A DNA stretch of 63,581 nt from Lachnospiraceae bacterium. GTDB taxonomy: Bacteria; Bacillota; Clostridia; Lachnospirales; Lachnospiraceae. The stretch lies in contig JAFSBX010000025.1 of assembly GCA_017437065.1 (NCBI GenBank), positions 1 through 63,581 on the forward strand. The letters run 5' to 3'. Made by a program: the position numbers and the translations under genes. A model generated the notes under the pieces. That model had not been told where the DNA came from. It made no database searches and saw only the letters and a program-made list of their open reading frames with translations. Below are positions 52,639 to 63,581 of this stretch, piece by piece (position 1 is the stretch's first letter; every line of letters begins with the position of its first letter).

Positions 52639-53178
52639 CTAATTCTCACTCAGAATATTCCCATACAACTTGTCTACTTCTCTTTCATAAACCGTCTCCG
52701 TATTTTCATCAAACAATACCCATTCTACCAAATCAAATTTATTCTCATGATCACTCAAGAATCCGGCAACTGTACTTACTGCAATCTTTGCAGCCAGTTC
52801 TACCGGAAAATGATAAATTCCCGTCGATATGGAAGGAAATGCTATGGTTCTTATACCGTTATCCATTGCAACCTGCATAGAATTATAGTAACAATCGGTA
52901 AGCAATTTTTCTTCGTTTTTTTTACCTCCATTCCATACCGGTCCCACAGTATGAATCACATAATCACAAGGCAGATTGTAAGCCTTAGTAATCTTTGCCT
53001 GCCCTGTCTTACATCCTCCAAGCAAACGACATTCAAATAATAGTTCCGGTCCGGCAGTTCTATGAATCGCTCCATCCACGCCACCACCGCCAAGTAATGA
53101 ACTATTAGCAGCGTTAACTATCGCCTGAACTCCTAACGGTTTTGTAATATCTCCTCTAACTGTTTTTATCAAATGCAT
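52639..53178 (-). CDS. Macro domain protein (ADP-ribose hydrolase type)
   Basis: 179 residues, a single macro domain of the YmdB/MacroD class. The ligand loops are visible: [40 protein letters not shown] and [34 protein letters not shown] is also characteristic. It should bind ADP-ribose and remove it from O-acetyl-ADP-ribose or from ADP-ribosylated proteins. The ribosome site is weak (GACGAG). A decayed copy of the fic control region lies about 105-220 bases upstream. Confidence 0.93.
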
Positions 53179-53213: not shown

Positions 53214-53285
53214 GACTTAACAGTTTCTTGGTTCAACACCAAATTGGTCTGTTAAACTGTCTACATATATTCCTGACAAATTCGT
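53214..53285 (-). pseudogene. Remnant of a fic gene start
   Basis: Downstream of the decayed operator copy the minus strand reads NLSGIYVDSLTDQFG in one frame. The intact Fic protein begins MNRAGLYVDNLT, and the DNA agrees at most positions over about 38 bases. The start codon is ACG (53283-53285) instead of ATG. The frame ends at a stop within about 70 bases. Confidence 0.6.
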
Positions 53286-53299
53286 ATACTTTTCACCTT

Positions 53300-53396
53300 A
53301 TTTTAAAATAATTACACTCATTACACCTCTTCTATTTCAAAATATCACTGGGTTGTTGAAATACACATCTTCTAATACTACGTCTTATTTCAAAAG
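53300..53396 (-). promoter_or_regulatory. Decayed copy A of the fic operator
   Basis: Four degenerate ten-base sites at 53300-53309, 53334-53343, 53353-53362 and 53387-53396, alternating in orientation. Centre spacings are 34, 19 and 34 bases, the same as at fic (34, 19, 33). The -10 box of the fic copy (TATAAT) reads TGTAAT here. Confidence 0.65.
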
Positions 53397-53498: not shown

Positions 53499-53663
53499 TC
53501 ACAGAGCCACCATTATTCCGTCTTCATCATATATTTTTTCGGTTTCATCTATATATTCCTTTTCAAGCAGCGTCCAACCGCTTAATAACAAATCTGCTTC
53601 ATGACGTATTACCTGTAATTCATCATAAGTACATTTTTCAAATGTAAACATCACTACCACCAT
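53499..53663 (-). CDS. Small hypothetical protein after the ATPase gene
   Basis: 54 codons: MVVVMFTFEKCTYDELQVIR, then a helical acidic stretch ending IYDEDGIMVAL. It begins 47 bases past the ATPase stop. The same frame is open further back into the ATPase gene, but that part is only the shadow of the ATPase frame. There is no strong ribosome site and no recognised family. It may be a remnant or a small partner of the ATPase. Confidence 0.35.
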   Translation of the reverse strand: MVVVMFTFEKCTYDELQVIRHEADLLLSGWTLLEKEYIDETEKIYDEDGIMVAL

Positions 53664-53709
53664 TTCTTCTATTTCCCATTTTTGTCTATTATATAATTTC
53701 GGGAAATAA

Positions 53710-54903
53710 TCATTCTTCTGCAAGCCAGTCTGCAATATCAATAATCCGAATTCCCTCATACTGATATTCTTCGCTTCTGGTTCGTGCAATTACCATCTTC
53801 GGGTATGCATCCTTAATCTGAAGTAGCGGTTCTACTTCACGTTTAAAAGTTTTTTCATCACTGATGTTATCGGATACCTGAATATATATCTTCTCACTCC
53901 GTTTCAAAGAAACAAAATCAATTTCCTTCTTATAAAGGACTCCAACATATACTTCATAACCTCGCCTGAGAAGTTCAATAGCAACAATATTTTCAAGAAC
54001 ACGACCAACATCCAAATTCTTTATTCCCAATTTTGCATAGCGGAAAGTATGGTCACTCAAATACAACTTATCATTTGAGGCTAGATATCTCTTCCCCTGT
54101 ATGTCATATCTGCGGAACTTGTAGAATGCAAAAGCATTACACAGATATTCCAGATAACTACCTACAGTCTTATGATTAATCTTATCTTTGTTGTTAGTAA
54201 GTGCATCTGCGATATTTCTTGCAGATGTCAGATTCGAAATGTTGTCCATCAAAAAATCAACAATACGATCCATCAGAATTCGATTACGAATTTTATATTT
54301 CTGTCGTATATCACGCACTATCAATGTATCAAACACATCTGCAATATAATCATATTTTGCTTCCTGCTCCTTATAAAGGTAAGAACCTGCCATACCTCCT
54401 TCTTTCAGATATCTGTCAAAAGCAGTGTAATTATCATTCAAGCTATAGTATTGAAGAAATTCATTAAACGAAAAAGGATATACTTTCACTTCAAAGGTTC
54501 TTCCGGTAAACAAGGTTGCCAAGTCAGAACTTAATAGAAATGCATTAGACCCGGTTATATAAATATCGAATTTTTCCATTGCATGCAGACTATTTATCGT
54601 TAATTCAAAATTTGTACACATCTGTACTTCATCAATTAAGACAAAGTTCTCTTTTCCCTTAACATATGATTGTTCAATATAATCATGTAACAGATGATAA
54701 TCCTTGTATGCCTCATATTTTGTTAAGTTAAAATTGATATGAATGATATTTGCATCTACATATGTTTCTTGCACATATTCCTTAAAGGCTTCCAATAATT
54801 TAGATTTTCCACTACGCCTAACACCAGTTATTACTTTTATATCTGGCGTTCCTATAACATTTATTAACTTTTGCAAATATCCTGTTCTATCTATCAGTTT
54901 CAT
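53710..54903 (-). CDS. AAA ATPase with DUF4143 domain
   Basis: 397 residues. Walker A is GVRRSGKSKLLEAF near residue 25, Walker B NFVLIDEVQM near 92, and sensor-type YITGSNAFLLSSDL and FTGRTFEVKVYPFSFNEFL follow, typical of this family. A winged-helix middle part (about 215-260) precedes the C-terminal DUF4143 nuclease-like fold with EIDFV and IYIQVS. The family is common in anaerobes and archaea, and its role is unknown. GAGG lies nine bases before the ATG. It has its own promoter and lies between two decayed fic-type control regions. Confidence 0.92.
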   Translation of the reverse strand: MKLIDRTGYLQKLINVIGTPDIKVITGVRRSGKSKLLEAFKEYVQETYVDANIIHINFNLTKYEAYKDYHLLHDYIEQSYVKGKENFVLIDEVQMCTNFELTINSLHAMEKFDIYITGSNAFLLSSDLATLFTGRTFEVKVYPFSFNEFLQYYSLNDNYTAFDRYLKEGGMAGSYLYKEQEAKYDYIADVFDTLIVRDIRQKYKIRNRILMDRIVDFLMDNISNLTSARNIADALTNNKDKINHKTVGSYLEYLCNAFAFYKFRRYDIQGKRYLASNDKLYLSDHTFRYAKLGIKNLDVGRVLENIVAIELLRRGYEVYVGVLYKKEIDFVSLKRSEKIYIQVSDNISDEKTFKREVEPLLQIKDAYPKMVIARTRSEEYQYEGIRIIDIADWLAEE

Positions 54904-54924
54904 AATTTTATCACCTCATTTTCA

Positions 54925-54976
54925 ATTATAGATTATCTATTTCCCAAAATCAATAAAATTTAAAAACTGGGAAATA
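54925..54976 (-). promoter_or_regulatory. Promoter and inverted repeat of the DUF4143 ATPase gene
   Basis: TTGATT (54948-54953), 17 bases and TATAAT (54925-54930) on the minus strand. Arms TATTTCCCA (54938-54946) and TGGGAAATA (54968-54976) form an inverted repeat with centres 30 bases apart that overlaps the spacer and flanks the -35 box. This fits a repressor site. Confidence 0.65.
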
Positions 54977-55002
54977 TCCTTGCAAAAGTATAATTTTTCA
55001 TT

Positions 55003-55065
55003 ATTTCAAAAAGTCACTACGTTTTTGAAATAAACCTCTTCTATCATTATGTCTTATTTCAAAAA
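55003..55065 (-). promoter_or_regulatory. Partial copy B of the fic operator
   Basis: Three well-preserved ten-base sites: ATTTCAAAAA (55003-55012), TTTTTGAAAT (55022-55031) and ATTTCAAAAA (55056-55065). Centre spacings of 19 and 34 match three of the four sites at fic. The fourth site and the -10 box are lost. Confidence 0.7.
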
Positions 55066-55371
55066 ATTTTTTTACTAATGTTTATAATTGTTTTTCTTCT
55101 CAAATACTCCTTATAACTCATTACATACAATTCATCATAACCATTTCTAATAATAGGAAACGGCATATCAATGCTTTCACATATTCTAACAATCTCTGCC
55201 GGATTTTTTAGTTTTTGAATCGTGATTGCCTCTAATTCATAATTCTGATTTTTTATTCCAAAATATTCCTTCTCAATATCTATTTCTCCGTTCGGTTTTC
55301 TAATCCGAAAATATTCATTGAAAATATCCTTTGTCATAATAACTAACTTAAGTTCTCCATTTCTGTTTACC
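55059..55371 (-). pseudogene. Truncated copy of the Phd-like antitoxin gene
   Basis: Encodes VNRNGELKLVIMTKDIFNEY and continues to the C-terminus almost identically to residues about 30-131 of the intact antitoxin at 62477-62872. The first 29 residues are missing and replaced by unrelated sequence with in-frame stops. That junction sequence (55375-55446) itself encodes a short stretch, MTLEDAELFIQKQWYDIDNQ, possibly part of another broken gene. Confidence 0.85.
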
Positions 55372-55467
55372 AATCCATATTAGACTGATTATCTATATCA
55401 TACCATTGCTTCTGAATAAATAACTCGGCATCCTCCAATGTCATTTAGTTAAGGTTTCACGAAAGTA

Positions 55468-61181: not shown

Positions 61182-62321
61182 TTACGTATCCTTCCTCAAT
61201 ATCTCCAAATACTCCTCATACGCAAACACTCTATTTCTCGCCGCATTGGTTGTTTCCTGCAAAATACCAAGTTCCACAAGCTTCTTCACAGCCGTAGCTA
61301 CTGTATTATAACTAATATCTAATTCCTTAGCAGTTCTCTTAATATCAATAATTGGATACTGTTCAATATAATCAAAAACTGCTCGTAAATTATCTTTGCT
61401 TCGAGTTGTCTTTGGAAGTTTTTCTATATTTGTATCATGCAGTGCAGAAAGCTGACGGATTGCTTCCAAAGAATCCGATGCCGCTTTACTCACCGCCTCC
61501 AAAAAGAATTTTATCCATTGTTCAAAGTTTCCACTTCTTCTAACTTCACTAATTCGATCATAATATTCTATCTGGTTCTTTTTCAAAAAATAGGATATAT
61601 AAATGACCGGTTTAGCAAGCAATCCCAGCTCCATCAGATAAAGGAGTATCAAAAGTCTTCCGATTCTTCCGTTGCCGTCCAAAAACGGATGTATTGTTTC
61701 AAACTGATAATGAATCAATGCGGCTCTAATCAATGGATCATAATCCACATTTTCATTGATAAATTTCTCCAAATCAGACATTGCGTTTTGCATATCCTCT
61801 ACATTGGGCGGAATATATCTAGCATCTTTTAATGAGCAGTTTGCAGGTCCAATCCAGTTTTGAGAATGTCTAAACTCTCCCGGGGTCTTATCCTGTCCAC
61901 GAACATTTTCCATTAATACTTCATGTATTTCTCTTATTAATCTGCAACACAAAGGGAATCTTTCCAGACGCTTCAATGCATACTGTGTTGCTTTCACATA
62001 ATTAATAACATCTGAAACGTCAAGATTTGCATTTGCTTCTACCTCTGGATCTAATACATCATCAAGAGTACACTGTGTGCCTTCTATTTGGGAGGAAATT
62101 AATGCTTCTTTTCTTACATACATTGATATAAACAAATCTGCATTGGAAATTAACTGTGATGCAGTATCAAGTTTTACAAGTTGTTTATTGGCATCTACTA
62201 AAAGTTTTACAATTTCCTCATCCATTTCAATTTCAGGCATAGGTGGTAATGGATTTGGTTTAAAAGATTGATAAGTAGCCTCTCCTGTTAAATTGTCAAC
62301 ATATAGTCCTGCTCGATTCAT
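61182..62321 (-). CDS. fic: Fic family protein with N-terminal inhibitory motif and C-terminal HTH
   Basis: 379 residues. An N-terminal Fic_N domain carries SSQIEGTQ near residue 77, the (S/T)xxxE(G/N) inhibitory helix of class II Fic proteins. The catalytic motif HPFLDGNGRIGRLL lies near 210, so transfer of AMP (or another nucleotide) to a target protein is expected and held in check by the inhibitory Glu. The last 75 residues form a winged HTH (IKRTAKELDISYNTVATAVK). AAGGAG precedes the ATG. The operator of four repeated sites upstream, plus the HTH, suggests autoregulation. Confidence 0.93.
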   Translation of the reverse strand: MNRAGLYVDNLTGEATYQSFKPNPLPPMPEIEMDEEIVKLLVDANKQLVKLDTASQLISNADLFISMYVRKEALISSQIEGTQCTLDDVLDPEVEANANLDVSDVINYVKATQYALKRLERFPLCCRLIREIHEVLMENVRGQDKTPGEFRHSQNWIGPANCSLKDARYIPPNVEDMQNAMSDLEKFINENVDYDPLIRAALIHYQFETIHPFLDGNGRIGRLLILLYLMELGLLAKPVIYISYFLKKNQIEYYDRISEVRRSGNFEQWIKFFLEAVSKAASDSLEAIRQLSALHDTNIEKLPKTTRSKDNLRAVFDYIEQYPIIDIKRTAKELDISYNTVATAVKKLVELGILQETTNAARNRVFAYEEYLEILRKDT

Positions 62322-62334
62322 ATAATTCTCCTTG

Positions 62335-62372
62335 TTTTGCGAAGCAAAATGCCTGCCTGATTATACAGGCAG
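62335..62372 (-). promoter_or_regulatory. Two hairpins in the fic leader
   Basis: CTGCCTG-N6-CAGGCAG (62353-62372, loop reads TATAAT on the minus strand) and TTTTGC-TTC-GCAAAA (62335-62349), the second ending beside the AAGGAG ribosome site. Could affect translation or mRNA stability. Confidence 0.5.
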
Positions 62373-62387
62373 AGAATTTTTTACCTC

Positions 62388-62483
62388 TTTTTGAAATAAC
62401 CACACTCATTATACCCTTTTTATTTCAAAAAGTCATTAGTTTTTTGAAATAAAGACGCTGGTTTCTGTATTTTGTTTCAAAAA
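62388..62483 (-). promoter_or_regulatory. Four-site operator and promoter of fic
   Basis: Sites TTTTTGAAAT (62388-62397), ATTTCAAAAA (62422-62431), TTTTTGAAAT (62441-62450) and GTTTCAAAAA (62474-62483) alternate in orientation with centre spacings of 34, 19 and 33 bases. A TATAAT -10 box (62408-62413, minus strand) lies between the first two sites. The fourth site covers the stop codon of the antitoxin gene. Two more copies exist in this window. Confidence 0.8.
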
Positions 62484-62872
62484 GTCTTTTTCACTAACCT
62501 TATAATTGCTTTTCTTCTCAAATACTCCTTATAACTCATTACATATAATTCATCATAACTATTTCTTATTGTAGGAAACGGCATATCAATGCTCTCACAT
62601 ATTCTGACAATCTCTGCAGGATTTTTTAGTTTTTGAATTGTAATTACCTCTAATTCAGAATTCTGATTGTTTATTCCAAAATACTCCTTCTCAATATCTA
62701 ATTCTCCGTTTGGTTTTCTAATCCGAAAATATTCATTGAAAATATCCTTTGTCATAATAACTAATTTAAGTTCTCCATTTCTGTTTACCACTACAGGCTC
62801 GCCTGCCTTATTACATAATTCAACAATTCCTGTTGTATCTTTTAAACTTGATAATGGTATAAATTTATTCAT
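62477..62872 (-). CDS. Phd/YefM-like antitoxin-type protein
   Basis: 131 residues. The first 45 match the Phd/YefM fold: MNKFIPLSSLKDTTGIVELC, then AGEPVVVNRNGELKLVIMTK. The C-terminal 85 residues (ITIQKLKNPAEIVRICESID, ELYVMSYKEYLRRKAI) are longer than in a typical Phd and unrecognised. GGAGGAG lies four bases before the ATG. It precedes fic by 155 bases, and no ParE/Doc toxin gene is adjacent. A truncated copy lies at 55059-55371. Confidence 0.82.
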   Translation of the reverse strand: MNKFIPLSSLKDTTGIVELCNKAGEPVVVNRNGELKLVIMTKDIFNEYFRIRKPNGELDIEKEYFGINNQNSELEVITIQKLKNPAEIVRICESIDMPFPTIRNSYDELYVMSYKEYLRRKAIIRLVKKTF

Positions 62873-62939: not shown

Positions 62940-63053
62940 TTCCGTCCAAGCCACTTCGAAAAAGCTTCGCTTTTCCTCAGTGTTTGGCTTTCGCCAAATT
63001 GTCCACTCGTAAAAAAGAGGCTCATACAAGCAAGCTTGTATCGCCTCTTTTTA
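62940..63053. repeat. Cluster of small hairpins and a strong terminator
   Basis: AAAAGC-TTC-GCTTTT, TTTGGC-TTTC-GCCAAA, and at 63011-63053 a long stem AAAAAGAGGC/GCCTCTTTTT with inner ATACAAGC/GCTTGTAT. The last can terminate in both directions and probably closes the unit ending with the EAL gene. No gene is seen in 62873-63010. Confidence 0.6.
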
Positions 63054-63090
63054 CTCCTGTCCAGCTTGGACTCAATGCTCCAACATATTT

Positions 63091-63330
63091 TCAATAAATA
63101 TTTGAATGTGTCAAGTAAGGGACAAAATAATAATAGCCATTACAAAGAACCCACACTTCATAATGGCTAATTGCATGTTTCATATTAAATTAACACTTCG
63201 TAAACCTGAAAGTTTACTTCTACTTTGAGAATAACTTTTTATATGGATTATCTGCACCAATTGTTCCAATTGAAACTTGTACTGTTGCTTTAGGTGTATA
63301 TGCAATTCACAAACCTTATCTATTTTTCAA
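63091..63330. other. Gap between the EAL gene and the hairpin cluster
   Basis: Contains a perfect 9-bp inverted repeat TAGCCATTA/TAATGGCTA (about 63134-63170). Short open stretches occur on both strands (on the minus strand TPKATVQVSIGTIGADNPYK to a stop), with no start codon. The latter could be a gene remnant; I cannot name it. Confidence 0.3.
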
Positions 63331-63367: not shown

Positions 63368-63581
63368 CTATACGCAATATTTCTCAATTACATCCTCCTT
63401 TGCAATAGGTTTTGAGTAATAATACCCCTGGAAGCTATGTATTCCGTATTCCCTAAGTATGTCACGCATTCCGGAGGTTTCAATACCTTCCACACACACC
63501 TTTGCCCCAAAAATGCTGGCGGCATCAGCTAAATTATTTACCAGTTTTCTTTCTTTGTCGTCTTCTTCTATTTTTTGAACA
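63368..63581 (-). CDS. EAL domain protein, C-terminal end only
   Basis: The last 70 codons of a gene that continues past the right edge. VCVEGIETSGMRDILREYGI and SFQGYYYSKPIAKED are the closing EGIET and QGYYFSKP motifs of EAL cyclic di-GMP phosphodiesterases, followed by a stop at 63368. The active-site EAL motif itself and any sensory domain are outside the window, so catalytic activity cannot be judged. Confidence 0.88.
   Translation of the reverse strand, partial: VQKIEEDDKERKLVNNLADAASIFGAKVCVEGIETSGMRDILREYGIHSFQGYYYSKPIAKEDVIEKYCV

Follow-up and report, generated by a model that had tools for sequence, protein, structure and literature searches.

Between a gene for a Phd/YefM-like protein and fic lies a short stretch of DNA in which one ten-base word recurs in alternating orientation, and the question that this locus raises is whether the array is an operator and, if so, which protein reads it. 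The window, meaning the whole stretch of Lachnospiraceae contig JAFSBX010000025.1 that was analysed (63,581 nucleotides), holds the following features at this locus.

The array and the fic promoter

61182..62321, minus strand: fic, 379 amino acids, SoFic-type class II, with Fic_N and Fic domains and a predicted C-terminal winged helix-turn-helix (HTH)
61194..61391, minus strand: the predicted C-terminal winged HTH of Fic, residues 311-376
61278..61313, minus strand: the predicted recognition-helix segment, residues 337-348, SYNTVATAVKKL
62388..62397: site D, ATTTCAAAAA on the fic strand, exact, at about the expected transcription start
62408..62413, minus strand: -10 box TATAAT, in the C-D gap, at a spacing of 17 bp from the -35 box
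62422..62431: site C, TTTTTGAAAT on the fic strand, exact, within the -35/-10 spacer
62431..62436, minus strand: -35 box ATGACT, in the B-C gap
62441..62450: site B, ATTTCAAAAA on the fic strand, exact, directly 5' of the -35 box
62474..62483: site A, GTTTCAAAAA on the plus strand, reading TTTTTGAAAC on the fic strand, one mismatch, the fic-distal site, which overlaps the 3' end of the Phd-like coding region (last codons and stop)
62477..62872, minus strand: Phd/YefM-like gene, upstream of the array; its PF02604 match (E 7e-5) does not reach the cut-off

The sequence-only reading had described four alternating copies at spacings of 34-19-33, and the positions, orientation and spacing all stood, but the fourth copy is inexact, with one mismatch (TTTTTGAAAC). 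In plus-strand coordinates the TTTTTGAAAT orientation falls at 62388-62397 (+), 62422-62431 (-), 62441-62450 (+) and 62474-62483 (-), with start-to-start spacings of 34, 19 and 33 bp, so that the order along fic transcription is A (62483-62474), B (62450-62441), C (62431-62422) and D (62397-62388). The TATAAT box that had been placed within the array is indeed there: it occupies 62408-62413 of the minus strand, which is the fic strand, and separates C from D, the two sites nearest to fic. The single word is common in this DNA (55 matches with at most one mismatch in the window, against 33.8 +/- 6.2 in shuffles). The alternating quadruple within 100 bp occurs once in the window and in none of 200 dinucleotide shuffles, and alternating triples number four against a mean of 0.01 and a maximum of 1 in the same number of such shuffles. 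The four-site array is confirmed as real. The triples include two more three-site copies that had escaped the earlier reading, an exact one at 55003-55065 and a degenerate one at 53334-53396.

As in the CccR system considered below, separated inverted half-sites lie at the -35 and -10 boxes of fic's own promoter. This arrangement recurs. Of 62 fic loci whose array scores 22 or more, 45 have the -35 box of their best promoter pair between B and C and the -10 box between C and D. In a further 9 the pair is found 42-43 bp farther along, which would fit a misassignment of A-B-C as B-C-D by the scan. A site of type A (7 or more matches out of 10) was found in 43 of these 62 loci. Site D lies 20-44 bp from the start codon in 30 of 42 non-redundant loci and 76 bp from it in the window, where 62322-62387 holds about 53 additional bases with a CTGCCTG...CAGGCAG repeat; a distance of 76-77 bp is also seen in L067 and L084, and one of 23-24 bp in several close orthologues.

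The position of the promoter bears on the reading of the array as a mobile or structural repeat, either a palindromic element or a transcript hairpin, with no regulatory function. As inverted repeats, the sites would be able to pair in RNA. Since the -10 box lies between C and D, however, only D would be transcribed from this promoter, and an RNA hairpin was rejected because the promoter sits inside the array.

Distribution of the array

The array was sought before 39 fic genes taken from a protein search alone (at least 50% identity, with the match reaching the N-terminus). This set includes one plasmid record and excludes the window's own two copies; L094, L135 and L157 were dropped for want of the Fic N-terminus. 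A free scan for three mutually similar 10-mers in alternating orientation, given neither word nor spacing, scored at least 26/30 in the upstream regions of 25 of the 39, compared with 1/38 downstream, 0/39 coding and 1/37 far upstream controls at the same loci. The distance between the like-oriented sites B and D is 50-52 bp in 22 of those 25. The sequence-only reading had staked its proposal on the presence of the array upstream of fic orthologues, and as a rule it is present, with 14 of the 39 scoring below 26. Over the 42 non-redundant loci, B and C are mostly 18 bp apart (35 loci; 17 bp in five and 19 bp in two), and C and D are 33 bp (23 loci), 34 bp (16 loci) or 32 bp (three loci) apart.

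Further relatives were scanned as well. With fixed spacing, one of seven protein-found Fics at 42-45% identity beat all 60 shuffles, as did two of nine scorable Fics at 27-35%; for the rest of these nine, the score was equalled by 1/60 shuffles in one case, by 4/60 in another and by at least 13/60 in five. Five plasmid-borne relatives, from the 25 matches listed of 146, were put through a free-spacing scan, and each was compared with 30 mononucleotide shuffles. L158 (Picosynechococcus) scored 28 against a shuffle maximum of 24, with a B-D distance of 51, and the others scored 24 against 23 (L159, sum 41), 20 against 26 (L160), 23 against 22 (L161, sum 55) and 24 against 24 (L162, sum 55). On these scores one of the five relatives has the architecture and four do not clearly have it.

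An exact-core pattern run over 84,980 genomes gave 74 matching stretches, and a scripted check placed a fic start 12-88 bp beyond the array in 25 of them. In 33 of the 74 an identical pair of flanking bases accompanies all three half-sites, and 24 of these 33 are fic-linked, against 1 of the 41 others (L026), leaving nine same-flank stretches in which the array stands without fic. Many of the non-fic stretches look like chance or shared sequence; several SAR86 records, and likewise several Flavobacterium/Bacteroidetes records, carry one near-identical stretch each. Fic-linked arrays are found in Lachnospiraceae, some other Bacillota and Spirochaetota, including Treponema and other Spirochaetales, Falseniella and a Tissierellia MAG, and two of them, in L030 (a Rickettsiales MAG) and L074, stand beside a Fic of only 35-38% identity. 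The reading of the array as a multi-site operator is thus supported both by its presence at fic in diverse taxa and by the same architecture before many orthologues chosen independently of the motif. At three loci (L053 5658-6494, L061 6272-7108 and L079 1338-2174) a second, distant Fic homologue of 24-25% identity lies divergently across the array from the main fic. For a phage origin there was no support, with no Fic match at E 1e-60 in 50,697 phage records and none at E 1e-3 in the three viral contigs that matched the pattern.

Four of 299 genomes from this family, the window's own among them, contain a three-site pattern with no more than three mismatches, at seven places in all; a reversed control pattern occurs in none. 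A fic gene stands at two of the places (62388 and contig C24), a fic remnant at one (53334) and no fic at four (55003, G031, G064 and G096); in none of the three array-bearing genomes besides the window's own is fic beside the array. Other arrays without fic are found at L059, L066 and L078. These three and the array of G031 look like operators that have outlived fic, although they may have another user. The array of G031 (L004, 1501-1563 and its flank), from the same genus as the window, has by eye a fourth site and a TATAAT-like stretch, and we label it a putative orphan operator.

The same places bear on the proposal that some other trans-acting regulator, encoded elsewhere and distinct from Fic, reads the array. 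In its favour, four of the seven are without fic and one more has only the remnant, the fic-less arrays of G064 and G096 match all 30 bases, the 99% complete genome G031 has no Fic match at E 1e-10 and G096 has distant Fic matches only. Such a regulator, however, would need to co-vary with the HTH of Fic (see below), and it must be set against the architecture lying before fic in the 25 of 39 orthologues picked without the motif. We consider this proposal improbable.

The two additional copies in the window are as follows.

55001..55372, minus strand: second copy, a three-site array (55003-55065) with a truncated Phd-like gene
53249..53396, minus strand: third copy, degenerate, a remnant of the fic N-terminus with a decayed array

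The second copy is 89.6% identical to 62420-62790 and lies upstream of a DUF4143 ATPase gene (53710-54903, minus strand), not of fic. It belongs to a block, 53502-55372, in which the truncated Phd-like gene and the array are followed by the ATPase gene instead of fic, and which has a 97.6% identical counterpart next to spoIVB in another Lachnospiraceae MAG (L057). The third copy has 3 mismatches in 30, and a 115-bp part of it matches the L032 fic start and array at 80% identity. The gene spoIVB (Peptidase_S55) adjoins the array in L004, L006, L008, L057, L059 and L078. Furthermore, 62990-63102 of the window, next to the Phd-like gene, is 94.7% identical to the spoIVB-side flank of the contig C24 copy, a repeat that reaches into the 3' end of the C24 spoIVB. 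This match suggests that the cassette was moved together with the end of a spoIVB gene.

Three array copies in one window, and a block common to another genome, are what a mobile repeat would give. Against this, the half-sites drift in concert within each locus while their spacing is kept, and since the extra copies carry phd or fic remnants they seem to have moved with the genes, for which reason a mobile repeat alone was rejected. A repeat with no regulatory function, mobile or structural, is in our estimation extremely improbable.

Three other features of the window were observed around these copies and at the contig end. A stand-alone macro-domain gene (52639-53178, PF01661 E 1.7e-46) lies just past the decayed fic remnant; an inverted repeat with 8-bp arms 19 nt apart (ATTTCCCA / TGGGAAAT, by eye) lies at 54941-54975, just 5' of the DUF4143 ATPase gene, so that this ATPase may have its own operator; and 63368-63580 encodes the C-terminal piece of an EAL-domain protein (PF00563 E 6.1e-13).

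The winged HTH of Fic and the half-sites

The Fic_N and Fic domains of the window protein are matched in Pfam at E 4.9e-26 and 2e-21, and the PADLOC SoFic model at E 9.1e-124. The HPFxDGNGR motif is present, with H211, P212, D215, G216, N217 and G218 invariant in the alignment. The N-terminal inhibitory motif, which in class II Fic proteins takes the form (S/T)xxxE(G/N), is also present, with S76 and E80 invariant and G81 nearly so. The NCBIfam model ProtAdlyltaseSoFic gives 201.8 bits, below its 550-bit equivalog cut-off; judged by these matches, Fic is of SoFic architecture but is not the SoFic equivalog itself. That it carries its own C-terminal winged HTH, as the sequence-only reading had it, is supported by an AlphaFold2 model (mean pLDDT 88.6) and by near full-length matches to the SoFic structures 3zcn and 3eqx, which are among its closest matches in the PDB. 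The model has helices at 311-321, 327-334 and 338-350 and strands at 355-358 and 364-367, and helix 338-350 is, in this model, the third helix of the winged HTH; the HTH_24 match in this region (E 0.00097) is below its cut-off. The structure 7xux, which we take to be that of CccR, is a distant match (E 5.6e-16, TM 0.57).

The half-sites differ between lineages while their spacing is kept, and the differences go with the recognition helix. ATTTCAAAAA is found with the SYNT helices of the window's nearer relatives. Helices with (A/S)FST go with ATTTTGA (core TTTTGA) in seven of eight loci and with ATTTCGA (core TTTCGA) in the eighth, FKT helices with ATTTTA.TTT in 4/4, helices with KY(I/V) with AAC(T/G)CA in 3/3, and YPT or FPT helices with ATTAAA in the three such loci that score at least 22; L143, whose helix TGYI is related to the KY(I/V) loci, has no clear array. 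For the main co-variation run, loci scoring below 22 were excluded, leaving 58, or 42 after removal of near-identical rows, and the half-site registers were aligned with a template that started from ATTTCAAAAA.

Over these 42 loci, operator distance correlates with recognition-helix distance at rho 0.60, compared with 0.32 for the catalytic part alone. The partial rho given residues 1-295 is 0.54, with a permutation P of 0.0005 that does not fully allow for relatedness; other parts of the winged HTH also correlate (partial 0.14 for helix 2, 0.31 for the wing). The co-variation holds when low-score loci are added (n=51), and the partial value is 0.57 when motif-found loci are excluded (n=34). 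N339 and Y338 rank first and second among 280 variable columns in the main run; in protein-found loci only, column 327, in helix 2 of the same winged HTH, outranks 339. N339 is concordant with a C at position 5 of the half-site in 60 of 61 loci. Since residue 339 changes only about three times on a tree of residues 1-295, there are two to three independent pairs, all concordant, which is too few for a sign test. Taken together, the half-site drift appears to follow the recognition helix of the Fic winged HTH.

The sequence-only reading had left the choice of repressor between the HTH of Fic and the Phd-like protein. The case for the latter, that a Phd-like repressor encoded just upstream acts as Phd does for phd-doc, has the adjacency of the gene, whose stop overlaps site A, the weak PF02604 match of its product, and three arrays without an adjacent fic that retain the Phd-like gene (L057, L059 and L078). 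A Phd-like match (tblastn on the fetched DNA), however, is found near only 4 of 25 fic-linked arrays, so that the gene is not needed for the array, and on this ground a Phd-like repressor was rejected. The array also lies downstream of the gene: from the Phd-like gene to the window end there is no further array copy, and past site A the sole word match is one 1-mismatch copy at 62630, inside the Phd-like coding region. A Phd-like repressor would, moreover, leave unexplained why the half-sites follow the recognition helix of Fic. We therefore regard it as very improbable, and the Phd/YefM-like gene is probably a passenger. As far as sequence can decide, the choice falls to Fic, because 21 of the 25 fic-linked arrays have no Phd-like match nearby and the half-site tracks the Fic helix.

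We propose, at a probability of roughly 0.83, that the array is a fic autorepression operator bound by the C-terminal winged HTH of Fic itself. The four half-sites A-B-C-D are interleaved with the fic promoter, with D at about +1, and Fic, presumably as dimers, would bind them via this domain. Fic bound at C, in the -35/-10 spacer, and at D, near +1, would block RNA polymerase, so that fic would limit its own expression. The dimers may pair as A-B and C-D, with gaps of 23-24 bp that are close to the 26 bp of CccR, or as B-C, the spacing of which is the least variable. In this scheme we infer the binding, the repressive sign of the control, the dimer pairing, the cooperativity and the derepression signal.

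A broader idea is offered tentatively, as a possibility that we do not favour: the anti-phage Fics of SoFic type might as a group be one-protein switches, toxin, sensor and repressor in one. Their dimers would occupy neighbouring places on a periodic promoter array, with like sites recurring every 51-52 bp or so, an infection-induced change in the state of the enzyme would free the array and sharply raise fic expression, and residue 339 would provide a simple, portable half-site code. A conserved self-binding operator, if true, would place a layer of transcriptional control inside the same protein as a SoFic-type toxin, and natural helix/operator pairs make such a layer directly testable. Half-sites spaced by 18 and 33-34 bp about the -35 and -10 boxes also provide a genomic signature that could serve for searches upstream of other Fic-HTH genes.

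Comparison with known systems

The sequence-only reading knew of no operator of this form having been described for class II Fics. This is only half right: an operator of this kind is published for CccR (PMC9755527), while no four-site form was found in the open-licence literature, preprints excluded. According to the available excerpts of this source, CccR of Yersinia pseudotuberculosis (YPK_0951) is a self-repressing class II Fic with a C-terminal HTH that binds two 10-bp inverted repeats, 26 bp apart, near its own -35 and -10 boxes, the evidence being EMSA, ITC, a footprint and a lacZ fusion (PMC9755527). On the basis of these excerpts, the window Fic is like CccR in class, in its C-terminal HTH and in inverted half-sites at the promoter, with a spacer of 24 bp (C-D) against 26. 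Unlike CccR, the locus has an array of three to four sites in place of one pair, with a different half-site, and CccR, unlike the window Fic, is a secreted T6SS effector.

SoFic of Shewanella (SO_4266, PDB 3eqx/3zcn) and the anti-phage Sofic of E. coli H397 share the domain order and class of the window Fic. No operator is described for either in the available portions of PMC10628234 and PMC12249575; the first of these (2023) states, in the part available, that DNA binding by SoFic was not yet shown. The excerpts of the second place a 47-residue antitoxin, AS1, downstream of E. coli Sofic and, for the silencing of single-gene SoFic-type toxins, point to the inhibitory helix and a small antitoxin (PMC12249575). 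A possible control of fic expression by Fic-fused HTH domains was suggested, in the portion available, by Kinch et al. (2009; PMC2686095). In the open-licence literature, preprints excluded, our search found neither a multi-site operator nor a recognition code for SoFic-type proteins.

The locus also resembles the phd-doc type II toxin-antitoxin system, in that a Phd/YefM-like gene adjoins a gene of the Fic fold and autoregulation via an operator is proposed. Phd acts from an operator upstream of phd. In the window, by contrast, the Phd-like gene precedes the array and fic follows it, and the Fic has an inhibitory motif and an HTH of its own. Self-repression is the published mechanism of CccR, and beside it the multi-site form, its breadth and the predicted recognition code would be new.
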